This document shows, piece after piece, positions 129-52,411 of a DNA stretch of 64,000 bases. The notes under the pieces were generated by a model. It was not told where the DNA came from. It searched no databases and saw nothing but the letters and a program-made list of their open reading frames with translations. A program made the translations under genes and the position numbers. This DNA comes from an uncultured Clostridia bacterium (GTDB lineage: Bacteria > Bacillota > Clostridia > Christensenellales > Borkfalkiaceae). The stretch is from assembly GCA_944354265.1 (NCBI GenBank), contig CALVPX010000001.1:32854-96853 (forward strand), given 5' to 3'. Position 1 is the first letter of the stretch. Each line of letters begins with the position of its first letter.

Positions 129-1564
129 CAGACTATATACTTATCCTGCGCCTGAGGAGCGGAGTCGATCTCTCTCTTCTTCTCCTCATATCCCTTCTTG
201 CCGAGCAGGGCGAAGGTTGCCTTTTTGCCGTTTTCTACGCCCGGCTGATTGAAGGTATTTATGTTGAGCATGGCGCCCGTGTAAGCCGTTTGAAGTTCCA
301 AAAGGAACATGAGCTGACCCAAGGTGAAGGCGTTTACCATGGGAAGATTTATGGTGTAATTCATTCTGCCCGCCATGGCCAAGGCGTATGCGGTGGCCTT
401 ATTTTCGGCCTGAATGAGTTCCTGCATGGTGTGGCCGCCGAGGAAGCCGACGTCGGGAATGTCCTCACAGCCGTGGGGAATGGGCATCTGCGTGGCGTAT
501 TCGCCGACGGAGATGAAGGTTATAACCTTGTCGTAAGGGCCCTCGATGTACAGCTGAACCTGCGAATGTTGGTCGGTTACGCCGAGGGATTTGACGGGCG
601 TGGTGCCTGCGTTGACGACGTTGCCGTCGTAGTCGACGGCCTTGCCGAGGGACTCCGCCCAAAGCTGACAGTACCAATCGGCCATGAGCTTTAAGTTGTC
701 AGAATAGGGCATGAGCACGTTGATGTTCTTGCCCTCCTTCATGGTTATATACTGAAGGGCTGCGCAGGCGAGCGCGGGGTTCTTGGAGATTGAGGGCTTG
801 GAGCACAGGCTGTCCATATAGGCGGCGCCTGCGAGCATGCCCTTTATATCTATGCCGAGGACGGCTGCGGGAAGGAGTCCCACGGGGCAGAGTTCGGAGA
901 ATCTGCCGCCTACGCCGTCGGGGAGGACGTACTTTTTAATCTTGCCGCCGAAGGTGTCGTCGATCTTAAGAAGGTTGCCGCGGGCGGCGTCGGTGGTGAA
1001 AATCATGTTGTCGGCCACGTTGACGCCCTTCTGCTTTAAAATGTCGGAAATTATTAAGTACTGCGTCATAGTCTCTGACGTGGCGCCCGACTTGGAGATG
1101 ACGTTGAAGCAGGTTTTTTCGGGCTCGATAACATCTAACAGCGCTGCCATGCGAACGGGGTCGACATTGTCCTCTACATAGAACTTGGGACCCCTGCGCT
1201 TTGAAGGGGGAAGTTCGTTGTAGTGAAGGTGGCAGAGCGCATTGAAGGCCATTATGGGGCCAAGGGCCGAGCCGCCTATGCCGAGCACGACGAAATATTT
1301 GAACTTTCTTCTTATCTCTTTTGCTGTAGCTAAAATATCGGCAACTATGGCGTCCTGATTGTAGGGGAGCTCAGTCCAACCCATATACAAATCGTCGCGG
1401 CCGCGGTTTTCCTTGACATAGTTGAAAGCCTCCTCCGCCTTGCCCTTTATTGCCTTGAGCTGACTGTCCTTGATGCCCCTGTCCCCTAAGGTTGCGGACA
1501 TCATGTAATTGTAATCTACTGTGACGCGCATGGAGTTGCGCCATTCCTTGGTTTTATAAGCCAT
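128..1564 (-). CDS. pgi: Glucose-6-phosphate isomerase
   Basis: Cytosolic enzyme that interconverts glucose-6-phosphate and fructose-6-phosphate. The 478-residue product has the Pgi signatures: a sugar-phosphate-binding GIGGSALGP loop near residue 95, VISKSGATSET, GGRFSELCPVG, and the C-terminal QPGVENGKK segment with the catalytic lysine. The start is set at the ATG at 1564, six bases after GGGAGG (1571-1576); an ATG three bases upstream is too close to that site. A longer reading to 1654 would translate the repeat-containing leader and is not supported. It is the only glycolytic gene at this end; pgk, tpiA and gpmI lie 11-16 kb away on the other strand. Confidence 0.96.
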   Translation of the reverse strand: MAYKTKEWRNSMRVTVDYNYMMSATLGDRGIKDSQLKAIKGKAEEAFNYVKENRGRDDLYMGWTELPYNQDAIVADILATAKEIRRKFKYFVVLGIGGSALGPIMAFNALCHLHYNELPPSKRRGPKFYVEDNVDPVRMAALLDVIEPEKTCFNVISKSGATSETMTQYLIISDILKQKGVNVADNMIFTTDAARGNLLKIDDTFGGKIKKYVLPDGVGGRFSELCPVGLLPAAVLGIDIKGMLAGAAYMDSLCSKPSISKNPALACAALQYITMKEGKNINVLMPYSDNLKLMADWYCQLWAESLGKAVDYDGNVVNAGTTPVKSLGVTDQHSQVQLYIEGPYDKVITFISVGEYATQMPIPHGCEDIPDVGFLGGHTMQELIQAENKATAYALAMAGRMNYTINLPMVNAFTLGQLMFLLELQTAYTGAMLNINTFNQPGVENGKKATFALLGKKGYEEKKREIDSAPQAQDKYIV

Positions 1565-1581
1565 CATGATCCTCCCGGAAA

Positions 1582-1635
1582 ATTTTGCGGTTTGCCGCAG
1601 TTTAGCTCTATGTTTTGCAGTTTGCCGCAGTTTTA
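1582..1635 (-). repeat. Two tandem copies of an about 20-bp motif in the pgi leader
   Basis: Between the pgi promoter and its ribosome binding site the leader carries two similar copies of a block containing ACTGCGGCAAAC and GCAAAA. The second copy contains GCGGCAAACCGC, which can form a small hairpin. This could be a protein-binding or folding element controlling pgi, but no known riboswitch class was recognised. Confidence 0.5.
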
Positions 1636-1642
1636 CCTTTAT

Positions 1643-20825: not shown

Positions 20826-21010
20826 ATTAACGCAAGTTGTGCATAAGAGGATATGCACCAACTTGCCGTTATTTGAGGGCGCTGCCCTCGTGGACGCAAT
20901 CCTAAATTGCCCTACTTTATATAATTGCGCCCACTTCACCTGCTGAGGCGAAAGTTTTCGCAAATTGGGGCCGCTGACGGCGAAATGAATTCGCCTTGCG
21001 ACGTTAATAA
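20826..21010 (+). repeat. R3 structured element, copy A
   Basis: Five consecutive hairpins: P1 TAACG-CAAGTTG-TGCAT paired with ATGCA-CAACTTG-CGTTA (20828-20871); P2 GAGGGC/GCCCTC with loop GCT (20875-20889); P3 GG-CGCAAT/ATTGCG-CC (20892-20931) with a 23-nt A+T-rich loop; P4 GCGAAA/TTTCGC followed by CAAATTGGGG; P5 GGCGAA/TTCGCC. The tail TTGCGACGTTAA is inversely related to the TTAACGCAAG start. Compared with the copies at 37521, 42622 and 51024, stems change with compensation while loops stay alike. No coding potential. Confidence 0.8.
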
Positions 21011-21044
21011 TTATAACACTCTTTCGCTTTGGAAGCACTACCAA

Positions 21045-21159
21045 TGTCATCTTGAGCGAAAGGAGCGAAGCGAGTGAAGTCGAAAGATCTTGTTCAATTT
21101 CGTACCAAACAAGATACATTCGACTACGCAGGGGTTACCCCTGCTCCGCTCAGTATGAC
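21045..21159. repeat. R1 facing pair
   Basis: R1 unit with ATCT/AGAT stem (21045-21092), a 17-nt spacer, and a facing unit with ATAC/GTAT stem (21110-21159). Same architecture as at 11788-11911 and 55410-55532, including similar spacer sequence. Confidence 0.85.
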
Positions 21160-21223
21160 CCCTAAGCGGGGTACGACGACAGGGGGAAAATTTTTAAAAA
21201 ATACATAAAATATTATTGGTGCT

Positions 21224-35864: not shown

Positions 35865-37514
35865 TTATTTATTGAAGTTGCTCTTCAGGGTGACTATTTC
35901 AGAGAGGACGGTGGTTGCGCCGTCGGTACACTTTTTGTAGTAGCCCGTGCGCATGAGCTGATAGGGCTTTTGGTCCTCGCCGTCGACCACATAGGGTTCG
36001 CACATGCCCTTAAGCACGCTTTCGCTTTGGGGGTCGAGGCGCTCGGCATAGTCCTGATCGGGGTACTGCTCATCCTTTAAGAGGGGCTTATACCGCCTGA
36101 ACTCTACCACCCTTCCGTACTTTGCGTCCACCCAATGGATGACGCCCTTGGCCTTTATGTCGCTCTTTACCTCGCTGCCCGAGCGGGTCTCGGGGAAGTA
36201 GGTGCAGAATATCTCCTCCACCCTGCCGTCGGCGCCCACCTTTACGTCGTCGCAACGGACGATGTAGGCCGCCTTCAAGCGCACGTTTGCGCCATTAGTT
36301 AAGCGCTTGTACTTGGGAGGGGGGTCGAGCGCGAAGTCGTCGCGGTCGATATACACCGTGCCCGTGAACTTTACCTTGCGGGTTGCGCCCGTGCCGTCGG
36401 TGGGGTTGATTTCGAAGTCGAGCTCCTCCTCTCCCTCGTAATTTGTTATGGTCAGCTTGACGGGGTCGAGCACGGCCATGGCTCTTTCGGCGGTGGCGTT
36501 GAGTTCGTCACGGATGCACTCATCGAGCTGTGCGAGGTCGACGACCGAATAGTTTTTGGCGACGCCGACGTCGGCGCAGAACTTTTTGAGCGCCTTAGGG
36601 GGCACGCCGCGGTTCTTTAAGCCCATTATGGTGGGCATGCGGGGATCGTCCCATCCGCGGACAAAACCTTCGTCGACGAGTTTTTTGAGGTACCGCTTGG
36701 ACATGAGCATGTTGGTTATGTTGAGGCGGGCGAACTCTATCTGACGGGGTACGGGGGCGGGGAAGCCTGCCTTTTCGATGACCCAATCATAGAGGGGACG
36801 GTGATTTTCAAACTCAAGCGAGCACAGCGAGTGGGTTATGCCCTCAATAGCGTCGGATATGGGGTGGGCATAGTCGTACATGGGATAGATGCACCACTTG
36901 TCGCCCTGACGGTAGTGGGGAACGTGCGCTATGCGGTAGATGACGGGGTCGCGCATGTTGATATTGGGCGACAACATGTCTATCTTCGCCCTCAACACCT
37001 TTGCGCCGTCGGGATATTTACCCGCCTTCATTTCGCGGAAGAGCTGCAAGTTTTCCTCCACAGACCTGTTGCGGTAGGGGGAGTTTGTGCCCGGCTCCGT
37101 GAGTGTGCCGCGGGTGGCGGTTATCTCCTCGGCGGAGAGGTCGCACACATAGGCGTTGCCGTCCATTATATACTTTTCTGCAATTTCGTACAGCTTGTCG
37201 TAGTAGTCGGAGGCAAAAACGAGCTGATCGTATTCAAAGCCCAACCACTTTACGGCGTCGATTATGGAGTTTACATACTCATAATCTTCCTTGGCGGGGT
37301 TGGTGTCGTCCATGCGCAGGTTGAGCTTGCCGTGGTACTTTTCCTTGACGCCGAAATTGATGCACAATGCCTTTACATGGCCTATGTGCAGATAGCCGTT
37401 GGGTTCGGGCGGGAAGCGGACGACAATCTGATTGCCGCGGCTTTCGAATTTGCCCGCTTCAAGTTCCTCGTTGATAATTTGTTCGATAAAGTTTGTAGCT
37501 TCGGGAAGATTCAT
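35865..37514 (-). CDS. glnS: Glutaminyl-tRNA synthetase
   Basis: Charges tRNA-Gln directly, class I synthetase, about 549 residues. HIGH motif in PPEPNGYLHIGHVKA near 37, DDTNPAKEDYEYV, the GlnRS-type YPMYDYAHPISDAIEGITHSLCSLEF, and the KMSKS equivalent MSKRYLKKLV near 270; a C-terminal anticodon-binding beta-barrel follows. Many Clostridia use GatCAB instead, so GlnRS implies direct glutaminylation here. ATG 37514 is preferred; GTG 37523 is the alternative. No T-box was found; an R3 copy directly abuts its 5' end. Confidence 0.95.
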   Translation of the reverse strand: MNLPEATNFIEQIINEELEAGKFESRGNQIVVRFPPEPNGYLHIGHVKALCINFGVKEKYHGKLNLRMDDTNPAKEDYEYVNSIIDAVKWLGFEYDQLVFASDYYDKLYEIAEKYIMDGNAYVCDLSAEEITATRGTLTEPGTNSPYRNRSVEENLQLFREMKAGKYPDGAKVLRAKIDMLSPNINMRDPVIYRIAHVPHYRQGDKWCIYPMYDYAHPISDAIEGITHSLCSLEFENHRPLYDWVIEKAGFPAPVPRQIEFARLNITNMLMSKRYLKKLVDEGFVRGWDDPRMPTIMGLKNRGVPPKALKKFCADVGVAKNYSVVDLAQLDECIRDELNATAERAMAVLDPVKLTITNYEGEEELDFEINPTDGTGATRKVKFTGTVYIDRDDFALDPPPKYKRLTNGANVRLKAAYIVRCDDVKVGADGRVEEIFCTYFPETRSGSEVKSDIKAKGVIHWVDAKYGRVVEFRRYKPLLKDEQYPDQDYAERLDPQSESVLKGMCEPYVVDGEDQKPYQLMRTGYYKKCTDGATTVLSEIVTLKSNFNK

Positions 37515-37520
37515 ATTTCT

Positions 37521-37703
37521 CACAAAAATTATGCGCTGGCGACGCGCAATAATTTTTCGTGATTTTTGGGAGCTCCGCTCCCCTTTGCGCGATGCCTTAT
37601 AGCACTCTATTATTAATCGCGCAAATTCACCTCGGCTGAGGCGCAGGTATGCGCAAATTGGGGCTGCTGCGGGGAAGTCAATTCCCCTTGCAACGTAAGT
37701 TAT
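37521..37703 (+). repeat. R3 structured element, copy B (upstream of glnS)
   Basis: P1 CAC-AAAATTA-TGCGC paired with GCGCA-TAATTTT-GTG (37521-37562); P2 GGGAGC/GCTCCC (37568-37582); P3 TTTGCGCGAT/ATCGCGCAAA, a perfect 10-bp stem (37584-37593/37616-37625) around loop GCCTTATAGCACTC...ATTA; P4 GCGCA/TGCGC then CAAATTGGGG; P5 GGGGAA/TTCCCC and tail TTGCAACGTAA. Same order as copy A with different stem bases. P1 overlaps the possible GTG start of glnS, on the opposite strand. Confidence 0.8.
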
Positions 37704-42621: not shown

Positions 42622-42812
42622 ATAATTAATGTTTTCACCCAAAACCACGCTTTTGGGTGAAAGGCCCCAATTTGCGCATACCTGCGGCTCACCTGAGGTG
42701 AAGGCGCACAATTATATTATTGAGGGCTATTTAAGATTGTGCGCCGAGGAGCGGAGCTCCTAAAACTAACGGGAAATTGGTGCATGTCCTCCAATGCACA
42801 ATTTCCGTTAAT
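42622..42812 (-). repeat. R3 structured element, copy C (starts in the tyrS stop codon)
   Basis: Read on the minus strand: P1 TAACGG-AAATTG-TGCAT/ATGCA-CAATTT-CCGTTA, P2 GGAGC/GCTCC, P3 GGCGCACAAT/ATTGTGCGCC (10 bp) with loop CTTAAATAGCCCTC...ATA, P4 CGCA/TGCG then CAAATTGGGG, P5 TTTCACCCAAAA/TTTTGGGTGAAA. The first TAA of the element is the tyrS stop codon (42808-42810). Confidence 0.8.
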
Positions 42813-43992
42813 TGAATTTTATTCGTATATGCACTTTCTTGCCCTTGTGGATGACGTCGCCGTCGGAGACGGGGGCGTTGATGTCGGTGACTTTGTCTTC
42901 GTTGAGGGACACGCCGCCCTGCGCGATCAGCCTGCGGGCCTCGCCGTTGGAGGAACATATTCCCGCAGCGACGAGCACGGGGATTATCGTTTTATTTTCA
43001 ACGGAAACCGTCTTTTCGGGCAGATTGTCGCCGCCGCCGAATGCCGCCTGAGCCTGTGCCTGCGCGGCATTTGCCTTTTCCGCGCCGTGGACGAGCTTTG
43101 TGAGCTCGTATGCAAGAATGGCCTTCTTTTCATTTATGCGGGAGGCGTCCCACTTCTCCATTTCGTAAATTTGCTCAAGGGGAATGAAGGTGAGCATCTT
43201 TATGCACTTCATGACGTCGGCGTCATCGACGTTGCGCCAATACTGATAGAAGTCGTAGGGGCTTGTCTTGTTTTCGTCAAGCCAAACGGCGCCCTTTGCA
43301 GTCTTGCCCATCTTTTTGCCCTCGCTGTTGAGCAGCAGGGTTATGGTCATTGCGTAGGCGTCCTTGCCGCTCTTTTTACGGATGAGCTCGGTGCCGGCGA
43401 GCATGTTGGACCACTGATCGTCGCCGCCGAACTGCATGTTGCAGCCGTAGTGCTCGTTTAAATACCAAAAGTCGTACGCCTGCATTATCATATAGTTGAA
43501 CTCGAGGAAGGAAAGTCCCTTCTCCATACGCTGTTTGTAGCACTCGGCACGCAGCATGTTGTTGACCGTGAAGCATGCGCCCACTTCGCGCAGCAGTTCA
43601 ACGTAGTTGAGCTTTAACAGCCAATCGGCGTTGTTGACCATGATCGCCTTGCCGTCGCCGAATTCGATGAAGCGCTCCATCTGCTTTTTGAAACATTCGC
43701 AGTTGTGGTTGATGACCTCGTCGGTCATCATGGTGCGCATGTCCGTGCGGCCTGAGGGGTCGCCTATGTGACCCGTGCCGCCGCCGACGAGGACGACGGG
43801 CTTGTTGCCCGCCATCTGCAACCTCTTCATCAGGCAGAGCGCCATGAAGTGGCCGACATGCAGACTGTCGGCTGTGGGGTCGAAGCCTATATAAAAGCGG
43901 GCGCCGCCGCCGTTGATGAGCTCCCTTATTTCCTCCTCATCGGTCACCTGAGCGATGAGCCCGCGGGCCTTAAGTTCTTCGTAAATTCCCAT
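42808..43992 (-). CDS. tyrS: Tyrosyl-tRNA synthetase
   Basis: Class I synthetase, 394 residues from ATG 43992. HIGH-type motif YIGFDPTADSLHVGHFMAL near 33, GGGTGHIGDPSGR, the tyrosine-binding MQAYDFWYL and GGDDQWSNML, KMSKS equivalent KKMGKT near 225, and a C-terminal S4 RNA-binding domain (ARRLIAQGGVSLNEDKV). GGGAGG lies 13 nt upstream; a TTG at 44025 would put that site inside the gene. It has a roughly 210-nt leader with hairpins but no recognisable T-box. Confidence 0.96.
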   Translation of the reverse strand: MGIYEELKARGLIAQVTDEEEIRELINGGGARFYIGFDPTADSLHVGHFMALCLMKRLQMAGNKPVVLVGGGTGHIGDPSGRTDMRTMMTDEVINHNCECFKKQMERFIEFGDGKAIMVNNADWLLKLNYVELLREVGACFTVNNMLRAECYKQRMEKGLSFLEFNYMIMQAYDFWYLNEHYGCNMQFGGDDQWSNMLAGTELIRKKSGKDAYAMTITLLLNSEGKKMGKTAKGAVWLDENKTSPYDFYQYWRNVDDADVMKCIKMLTFIPLEQIYEMEKWDASRINEKKAILAYELTKLVHGAEKANAAQAQAQAAFGGGDNLPEKTVSVENKTIIPVLVAAGICSSNGEARRLIAQGGVSLNEDKVTDINAPVSDGDVIHKGKKVHIRIKFN

Positions 43993-44074
43993 ATTAAGGA
44001 TATTTCCTCCCGTTAAGATTTTCAAATAAAAGCCTTTAAAAAGAAGGCGTTACATTTATTTAAGTATTAATATA

Positions 44075-49854: not shown

Positions 49855-49970
49855 GCATTAATTCCTATAAAGTTGATAGGAATTTGTGGCAGTAATATGA
49901 AAGTCTAAGTATTACAATATATGTGAATAATGCTGCAGCAATAAGCGCCCTTTTGTCCGTCGCCGCCCAT

Positions 49971-50140
49971 TGTCATACTGAGCATAGCCGAATGTATCTC
50001 GCGCGGCTTCCGCGCGGACAATGGGCGGCTTCGAGATTTCTCCACGTTGGTCGAAATGACAAAAGGGGCGAAAATGGCGCTCAAAATAACGGCGGGTTGG
50101 TGCATATCCTCATATGCACCAACCCGCGTTAACCTTTTCC
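49971..50140. repeat. R1 pair and an R3 P1-hairpin remnant
   Basis: R1 units with ATAC/GTAT (49971-49999) and ATTT/AAAT (50032-50061) stems, then at 50089-50137 a long hairpin AACG...GGTTGGTGCATAT/ATATGCACCAACC...CGTTAA matching P1 of R3 (minus-strand orientation, loop GAGG as in copy A). The remaining R3 hairpins are missing. Confidence 0.7.
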
Positions 50141-51023: not shown

Positions 51024-51208
51024 ATTAACGGCGCAAGTGAAGTCGCGCCTTCACGCAGCGCAACCCAATTTGCGAATCCTTTCGCCTCAGCAGTGGGAAT
51101 TGCCGCGACTATATAATATGTGGGCTATCATAAGGTCGCGGCAAGGGCGGCAGAGCCGCCAAAATTAACGGCAAGTCGCAGGCGTCGTCAGCCAAGACTT
51201 GCGTTAAT
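51024..51208 (-). repeat. R3 structured element, copy D (downstream of ackA)
   Basis: Minus strand: P1 TTAACGCAAGTC/GACTTGCCGTTAA, P2 GGCGGC/GCCGCC, P3 TTGCCGCGAC/GTCGCGGCAA (10 bp) with loop CTTATGATAGCCCAC...ATA, P4 GCGAA/TTCGC then CAAATTGGG, P5 GTGAAG/CTTCAC, ending GCGCCGTTAA. Both ends carry TTAACG with GCAAG, an imperfect terminal inverted repeat. It lies 10 bp after the ackA stop. Confidence 0.8.
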
Positions 51209-51217
51209 GACCGTGCG

Positions 51218-52411
51218 TTAAACTAGTGCTAAGGTTTCTCTTGCAATGACAAGTTCTTCGTTGGTGGGGATGACGAGCACCTTGACCTTAGAATCCTTGG
51301 CGGAAATTTCGCGGACGGAACCTGTGTTTTTACCGTAATTTGCCTCTTTATCGAGCTTGACGCCGAGGAATTCGAGGCCTTCGCACGCGCCTTCACGGAC
51401 GGTGGGAGTATTTTCGCCGATGCCTGCGGTGAAAACTATGCAGTCGAGACCGCCCATTGCCGCGGCATAGGAGCCGATGAACTTCTTGGTCTGATAAGCG
51501 AACATGTCGAGGGCGAGCTGACACCTTTCATTGCCTGCCTCTGCGCCGGCGATGAGGTCGCGGAAGTCTGAGGAGACGCCCGATATGCCTAAAACGCCGC
51601 ACTCCTTGTTGAGGTAAGTTACCATACGGGCGGCATCATAGCCCTTTTTGCGGGCGAGGAATTCGACTGCCGACGCGTCGATACAGCCCGAACGGGTGCC
51701 CATGAGTACGCCGTCGAGCGGGGTGAAGCCCATGGAGGTATCTACGCAGACGCCGCCGTCAACGGCAGAGATGGACGAACCGTTGCCGAGGTGGCAGGTG
51801 ACCGTCTTTAAATCCTTGATGTCCTTGCCGAGGTACTTTGCCGCCTCCTGAGAGACAAATTTGTGCGAAGTGCCGTGGGCGCCGTACTTGCGGACGCTGT
51901 AGGCCTTGTAATCTTCGAACTTGATGCCGTACATATATGCCTTGGGGGGCATGGTCTGATGGAAGGACGTGTCGAACACGAGCACCATGGGGGTGTGGGG
52001 CATTACCTCTATGCACGCCTTGACGCCCGTTGCGGCGGCAGGGTTGTGAAGGGGGCCGAGTTCGAAGGTCTTTTCGAGAGTCTTTAAAACTTCGCCGTCC
52101 ACAAGGGTGGGCTTTTTGAAGTATTCGCCCGAAGCGACTACGCGGTGGCCGACAGCGCCGATCTCCTCCATAGATTTTATGACGCCGATTTCGCCGTCGG
52201 TGAGCGCGTGAAGGACGAGCTCGATTGCCACTTTATGGTCGGGCATGTCCTGTTCGTAAACTTTTTCGTGGCCGTTGCCCTTGGCCTTCAATACCGAGCC
52301 GGCAATACCTATTCTTTCGACATTGCCCTTGGCGATTACACCCTCGGTTTCCATGTCGATGAGCTGATATTTGAGCGACGAGCTGCCGGCGTTAACTACC
52401 AAAATTTTCAT
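51218..52411 (-). CDS. ackA: Acetate kinase
   Basis: Converts acetyl phosphate and ADP to acetate and ATP, the energy-yielding end of fermentation. 397 residues: VNAGSSSLKYQ at 5-15, VGHRVVASGE near 90, FDTSFHQTMP near 148, HLGNGSSISAV near 207, GTRSGCIDAS and FTAGIGENTP near 325. Follows pta on the same strand with a repeat-filled gap of about 370 bp. SD AGGAG. Confidence 0.98.
   Translation of the reverse strand: MKILVVNAGSSSLKYQLIDMETEGVIAKGNVERIGIAGSVLKAKGNGHEKVYEQDMPDHKVAIELVLHALTDGEIGVIKSMEEIGAVGHRVVASGEYFKKPTLVDGEVLKTLEKTFELGPLHNPAAATGVKACIEVMPHTPMVLVFDTSFHQTMPPKAYMYGIKFEDYKAYSVRKYGAHGTSHKFVSQEAAKYLGKDIKDLKTVTCHLGNGSSISAVDGGVCVDTSMGFTPLDGVLMGTRSGCIDASAVEFLARKKGYDAARMVTYLNKECGVLGISGVSSDFRDLIAGAEAGNERCQLALDMFAYQTKKFIGSYAAAMGGLDCIVFTAGIGENTPTVREGACEGLEFLGVKLDKEANYGKNTGSVREISAKDSKVKVLVIPTNEELVIARETLALV

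Follow-up and report, generated by a model that had tools for sequence, protein, structure and literature searches.

R3 copies in the window and their anatomy

The window (the whole 64-kb stretch of DNA that was analysed) carries four full-length copies of an element, R3, with a unit length of about 185 nt. The first copy lies in the gap between a gene that we take to be secG and rnr, which encodes RNase R. All four copies claimed in the original prediction were recovered by a covariance model, R1, for which the 32 copies of alignment A2 were used, with scores of 155.8 to 199.3 bits, and a fifth, degenerate copy was also found. The features are as follows:

20826-21008 (+): R3 copy 1, full length (model R1, 199.3 bits); neighbours presumably secG on one side and rnr (NCBIfam TIGR02063) on the other
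20827-20871 (+): P1 of copy 1, long hairpin whose 3' arm has, close to its base, a conserved bulged C
20875-20889 (+): P2 hairpin of copy 1
20890-20934 (+): P3 hairpin of copy 1, with a conserved loop
20948-20961 (+): P4 of copy 1, small hairpin
20962-20970 (+): conserved unpaired linker of copy 1, AAATTGGGG
20972-21000 (+): P5 of copy 1, two-part hairpin; other hairpins in its place in some copies
21001-21008 (+): 3' end of copy 1, ACGTTAAT, in a short inverted relation to the 5' TTAACG
37518-37700 (+): R3 copy 2 (model, 161.3 bits)
42625-42812 (-): R3 copy 3 (model, 171.7 bits)
49926-50133 (-): fifth, degenerate P1-headed copy (model, 48.6 bits)
51024-51208 (-): R3 copy 4 (model, 155.8 bits)

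The five hairpins follow an identical order in the four full copies, and their stems differ between copies as first described. The unpaired parts are also conserved, namely the P3 loop (GC-C and TTATATA) and the AAATTG located 3' of P4. The ends had been presented as inversely related: a short TTAACG/CGTTAA relation does exist, but this outer relation is variable, because the 5' TTAACG has its main pairing partner in the 3' arm of P1 itself (CGTTA).

P1 is the end of R3 that tends toward gene edges. In copy 4, TTAACG starts 10 nt past the end of the acetate kinase gene (51218-52411, -; TIGR00016) and, in copy 3, the TAA within TTAACG is the stop codon of the ORF 42808-44025 (-). The P1 end of copy 2 lies at the start of the ORF 35865-37523 (-), which as mechanically listed overlaps the element by 6 nt, and the automatic junction test gave no edge there. 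In the 49926-50133 fragment, P1 and the beginning of P2 give way to another repeat, and by eye a P1 bulge looks paired up. Repeats of the TGTCATTTCGA...GAAATCT kind, present at 21040-21190 of the window, adjoin many R3 copies on their P5 side.

Copy number and host range

The genome from which the window comes (1.75 Mb in 55 contigs) matches copy 1 by BLAST at 42 places (E ≤ 0.001) and the model at least 66 times (E ≤ 0.01, best 150 of 654 candidates scored). We infer that the host genus is Candidatus Coproplasma. At least 54 of the 61 genomes of this genus harbor an R3 match at E ≤ 1e-4, with copy numbers per congener ranging from none found, in seven of the 61, to more than 40 (model, 43 candidates per genome scored); with copy 1 as its sole query, BLAST gave matches in 27 of the 61 genomes, all of the host genus. 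Furthermore, among the matches listed for a diagnostic R3 stretch, the genomes named belong to Candidatus Coproplasma (several species) or to uncultured Clostridia, Clostridiales or Eubacteriales. When 200 genomes of the order were searched, matches were found in all six of the genus and, as weaker relatives, in four of six from one sister genus of the same family. The other 188 genomes (one from a third genus of the family and 187 which, by listing order, belong to other families) gave none. The elements of the sister genus retain the P1 hairpin, a GCAAAT linker and P5, and in some of them P1 seems, by eye, to follow a stop codon directly. Among the genomes searched, many R3 copies are thus confined to one bacterial family.

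A phage or plasmid origin was considered; copy 1 has no blastn match in phage and plasmid collections. One IMG/VR contig catalogued as viral (L237) carries an R3 copy at 1459-1642 (-). Its neighbours are of restriction-modification type, namely genes for a GmrSD-type protein and an N-6 methylase, the two of four proteins scanned that have Pfam matches; a viral origin is thus possible. Among the titles and abstract openings listed in searches of the open-access PMC literature, R3 is not named.

Placement of P1 at gene edges

Placement was assessed on 105 distinct copies that matched both model ends and had at least 800 nt on each side, 103 of which could be assigned. The median distance to the ORF edge is 7 nt for the P1 end and 184 nt for the P5 end, and 67 of 103 P1 ends versus 10 of 103 P5 ends fall within -7 to +12 nt of an edge; these ORFs come from a simple ORF caller instead of a gene finder, so that starts are approximate. 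Fourteen of the 103 P1 ends lie in frames open into the element. After removal of such frames, 53 of 89 P1 ends and 7 of 100 P5 ends are still at an edge (Fisher p 2e-15). Moreover, the share of free intergenic length found on the P1 side departs from uniformity (KS p 4e-25).

Fifty copies from the own genome and a relative, G062, were classed by what P1 faces: a stop for 26 of them, a start for 22, and neither for the other two; six of the 50 overlap an ORF of at least 120 aa by more than 30 nt. Among 134 P1 junctions, 24 have no gene edge. Of 84 stop positions, 40 precede TTAACG by 3-8 nt and in 14 cases the TAA of TTAACG is itself the stop. Of 49 start positions, 20 are located 7-12 nt away, which corresponds to the ribosome site. 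Insertion aimed at edges, or one-sided loss of DNA beside P1 down to a selected base, may each give such a placement. This sharp, testable oddity points either to an enzyme yet to be named or to strong selection acting locally.

Insertion sites and modular structure

Two gaps were followed in related genomes. Upstream of rnr, two of 11 genomes, the own one and G062, have R3 directly after the presumed terminator of the preceding gene, and the other nine have a short gap without R3. The second gap is flanked by genes that we take to be pfkA and ppk. The same two genomes, out of ten, carry there an inverted R3 pair that is flush with both genes; G029 carries a P1-headed other element, with R3 further on, and the remaining seven have a short R3-free gap, which in one of them shows an apparent remnant. 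One-sided loss of DNA beside P1 is proposed because the native gap is lost at pfkA-ppk. Among 37 own copies taken up for comparison with G062, 16 have both flanks in 574 kb of that genome. By eye, two of these sites hold the same inverted pair, four hold another or rearranged R3, and ten hold none or scraps. As judged from these alignments, R3 subtypes differ between genomes at one and the same site.

Between the species, the orthologous inverted pair shows 98-99% identity in each 100 bp over 300 bp, versus 73-91% in windows of the flanking genes, and in one of its copies the P1-P2 part is replaced. Since the pair is far more alike than its flanks, it looks like a product of constraint or of recent exchange in place, not like a decaying insertion. 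Such resemblance, together with the median distances of 7 and 184 nt given above, would suit a cis-acting gene-edge element, whose P1 is selected to end, protect or insulate messages, or which acts as a protein-binding cruciform, its mobility being past. We consider this unlikely, since R3 is missing from 9 of 11 genomes at one of the sites followed and from 7 of 10 at the other, subtypes differ at a single site and seven of the 61 congeners are without a match (43 candidates scored per genome). The insertions seen relative to related genomes, the tandem arrays and the restriction to one family fit one of the two proposals initially made, a mobile element kept by its fold. By eye, none of 70 listed junctions shows a target duplication, and no clean empty site was found for comparison. 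Transposition is therefore at most probable, movement itself not having been observed.

R3 copies are modular. P1 occurs in several apical types, the P2 loop holds in some copies an extra block of about 110 nt, and P5 can be replaced by another hairpin set. The 110-nt block (L020, L064, L065, L276, L288) has hairpins and conserved parts of its own, and seemingly related blocks replace P5 in L016 and L058. Several relatives carry tandem arrays in which the copies are separated by an AT-rich spacer and often have a partial P1 after them; inverted arrays also occur. P1 also heads other repeats (L060, L062, L335), in which it is followed by rows of small hairpins with GTGAATT- or GTGAAAT-like spacers. 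These loci and sites in G062 (L298, L306) correspond to a separate repeat type that is sometimes P1-headed; its small hairpins differ much, and its GTGAATT/AATTCAC-like spacer is constant.

Stem covariation and the nature of the fold

The covariation first read in the four copies was examined in alignment A3 (103 matches, 102 of them distinct, from 100 chosen loci). All 42 pairs show changes on both sides. Standard pairs are formed in 96.1% of A3 cells; shuffling reduces this to 71.7%, none of 500 shuffles reaching the observed value, and sliding the partners by 1-3 columns lowers pairing to 35-48%. Changes affect both sides in 1002 cells versus 283.6 in shuffles, and 28 cells have one-sided changes that keep a standard pair. 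As A3 was fitted to the model, it leans toward the model structure; in A2, which was aligned by MAFFT without structure and leaves out L016, L020, L058 and one duplicate of L017, double changes are found in 33 of the 42 pairs. These data confirm the R3 observation, which is not due to chance and which the first description understates.

RNA tolerates G-U pairs, whereas the mirror combination A-C is a mismatch; if DNA alone matters, both should be alike. The 4209 cells of A3 comprise 4014 Watson-Crick pairs, 30 G-T, 41 A-C and 124 others (G-T versus A-C, binomial p 0.24), and A2 contains 10 G-T and 16 A-C. By contrast, RNase P RNA of the genus (30 of 47 found, treated with MAFFT and RNAalifold as for A2) has 247 G-U and 18 A-C, and a tRNA control, for which the acceptor and T stems were taken from 28 distinct tRNAs present in the loci, has 32 and 7. 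Fisher tests gave p values of 7e-11 for A2 versus RNase P RNA, 1e-19 for A3 versus RNase P RNA and 5e-5 for A3 versus tRNA, pair cells being non-independent since R3 copies are related. Infernal scoring should favour G-U if anything, so that such a bias would oppose the result obtained for R3. Since G-T is not above A-C, the stems look kept as DNA, without preference for one strand. Hence, the R3 fold looks kept paired on DNA and not as RNA.

The G-T count speaks against the conserved folded RNA that had also been proposed. A structured RNA, whether a small RNA or a leader or trailer that regulates in cis, would account for the covariation of all 42 pairs, for the conserved loops and linker and for the position beside stop codons and ribosome sites. 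We nevertheless hold it to be very improbable: besides the G-T count, R3 lies in both orientations to its neighbours, reaches 66 matches in one genome (best 150 of 654 candidates scored) and is covered by no Rfam family. At gathering score, neither the window nor 20 further loci have an Rfam family lying over R3, and a permissive search with copy 1 gave matches only far under cut-off. Near-perfect covariation, the usual mark of a functional RNA, here appears to derive from DNA and calls for caution. A simple count of G-T versus A-C separates RNA from DNA, and motifs predicted elsewhere could be tested in the same way.

The Rfam searches also gave a Gut-1 RNA match in G062 (L276:15075-15179, +; 52.8 bits for a gathering score of 50), a family to which the G-T/A-C test could be applied, and an ordinary T-box leader in a congener (L118:2236-2477, -).

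Shape features and changes of the hairpin arms

The unpartnered base of the P1 3' arm forms a bulge in 99 of 102 copies (95 C and 4 T). It is paired up in two copies, tandem neighbours in one genome, whose 5' arm has gained the matching G. In the loops of at least 4 nt of P1, P4 and P5, the only ones covered by the orientation test, none of the 102 copies has a loop whose reverse complement occurs in another copy. The retained bulge and the unflipped loops argue for recognition of a folded strand with polarity.

Genomes G031 and G027 have 709 bp in common with three differences, two of which are both partners of one P2 pair (A-T versus C-G). This suggests that both arms changed in a single step. 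The stretches are near draft contig ends, so that recent exchange or mis-binning is possible; the double difference stands. Among copies at least 85% identical (34 non-independent pairs), 63 changed pairs are one-sided and 92 both-sided, and among copies 60-70% identical, which also share sequences between comparisons, 85% of changed pairs are both-sided. In ten close pairs sharing some sequences, 41 changes in unpaired columns were counted versus 9 one-sided pair changes, one of them mis-registered; the nhmmer alignment of close pairs mis-registers the P2 pair of L034/L109, for which direct alignment was preferred. Paired columns thus vary less than unpaired columns when near-identical copies are compared, which means that selection may act on some of the copies.

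According to PMC8794818, template switching can rewrite the arms of a hairpin in one event. Conversion between copies would give the same arm pattern, and selection on point changes may be an alternative. Template switching by DNA polymerase could even be all that is needed, the arms of neutral palindromes being equalised and covariation arising whether or not the fold has a function. PMC8794818 describes the mechanism, and the scarcity of one-sided changes (28 cells versus 1002), the double difference within the 709 bp and the bulge paired up in two tandem copies and, by eye, in the 49926 fragment are consistent with it. Such a process should tend to erase the P1 bulge, yet this is kept in 99 of 102 copies; it could also invert loops, which is not seen in those of P1, P4 and P5, it leaves gene-edge placement unexplained, and one-sided changes do occur (63 versus 92 in the 34 non-independent pairs above). 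We therefore regard neutral palindromes as decidedly unlikely. Whatever maintains the arms, R3 is a natural system for studying one-step change of palindrome arms.

Search for a driving enzyme

A Y1_Tnp domain scores over cut-off in 18 of the 61 genomes. No Y1_Tnp was found in the R3-rich genomes G002, G014, G016, G030, G062 and G077, each with at least 42 or 43 R3 matches; these are drafts, in which the absence of a single gene is weak evidence and may reflect an assembly gap, though hardly in all six. The sole Y1_Tnp gene of the own genome (G000:C16:3743-4099, L059), which we take to encode an ordinary IS200-type TnpA, has no R3 match in its 3.4-kb locus; a TnpA/IS200-like gene bounded by R3 ends, which would have supported a mobile origin, was thus not found there. 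PMC8266576 and PMC3733652 describe REP sequences as intergenic, imperfect palindromes with a conserved bulge, present in high copy number and in mosaics, and limited to related species. The many-copy intergenic hairpins of R3, with their bulge, arrays and inverted pairs, recall these traits and could point to a REP/BIME-type element moved by an IS200/IS605-like Y1 transposase (RAYT). The Y1 distribution, its absence from the six R3-rich drafts and the R3-free Y1 locus of the own genome make this extremely improbable.

Two other drivers are not supported either. An IS91/Helitron-like element would use a Y2 HUH transposase, and Y2_Tnp is over cut-off in one of the 61 genomes (two at E ≤ 0.001). 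The TnpB-type domain is over cut-off in three of the 61: G075, with 13 R3 matches, and G067 and G070, where R3 gave no match. The resemblance to HEARO/omega-type RNAs envisaged at first finds no support either in this distribution or in Rfam. No autonomous partner or enzyme was found, and no gene-bearing relative of R3 was noticed in the loci examined.

Likeness to known repeat systems

R3 resembles REP, BIME and REPIN sequences in being an intergenic, bulged palindrome with many copies, arranged in tandem and inverted mosaics and limited to related species; 44 of 50 copies do not overlap an ORF of at least 120 aa by more than 30 nt. It differs from them in having five different palindromes per unit of about 185 nt, stem sequences that vary widely, P1 near gene edges and no linked Y1 gene. 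No conserved GTAG was seen by eye in the R3 alignments; CGTC is found on the reverse strand beside P5, by eye only in copies ending with GACGTTAA or the like. R3 thus falls outside REP (no tag, no Y1 partner), outside Rfam-type RNAs and outside TnpB-linked omega RNAs.

MITEs and ERIC-like repeats are short, interspersed, structured sequences without ORF and with short inverted ends. Like MITEs, R3 is short, has no gene of its own and is present in many copies. Enterobacterial RU repeats share this short, interspersed, structured and ORF-less character. Unlike MITE, RU and ERIC sequences, R3 has several covarying hairpins and exchanges modules, and neither target duplication nor a parent transposon was found; in the loci examined its terminal inverted repeats amount to the short TTAACG/CGTTAA. 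Integron attC sites are also folded DNA recognised by its shape, with an extrahelical base and tandem arrays, whereas R3 has five hairpins and no gene cassettes were seen. The ends of R3 do not appear to match the attC core consensus. Lastly, the template-switch-maintained hairpins of PMC8794818 share with R3 single-step compensating changes and perfect stems; R3 differs from them in being a dispersed DNA repeat with a retained bulge and loop orientation.

A probable mobile palindromic element and its possible mechanism

We consider R3 to be probably a non-autonomous, modular, composite palindromic DNA element that is mobile within one family (Coproplasma and a sister genus), a reading based on comparison of sequences. 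By analogy, this modular variant of the bacterial palindromic repeat most likely works like REP and other folded-DNA elements. As for the enzyme and the copying route, we infer that an enzyme provided in trans would recognise the fold in DNA, either as a hairpin or as a cruciform. Recognition would rest mainly on the P1 end, as it does on the hairpins of REP, IS200/IS605 or attC, and the arms could be equalised by template switching or by conversion between copies. P1 would become flush with genes through targeted insertion, or through repeated loss beside P1 up to the first base that selection protects.

A bolder reading, which is tentative and rather unlikely, is that DNA mobility is guided here by hairpin shape without a known Y1, Y2 or TnpB enzyme. 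Any P1-shaped fold with a bulge would then serve as an end, interior hairpins would be exchangeable cassettes, and insertion or repeated one-sided deletion would be aimed at the edges of translated regions. If such shape-guided mobility is true, these bacteria rebuild their intergenic regions out of hairpin modules.
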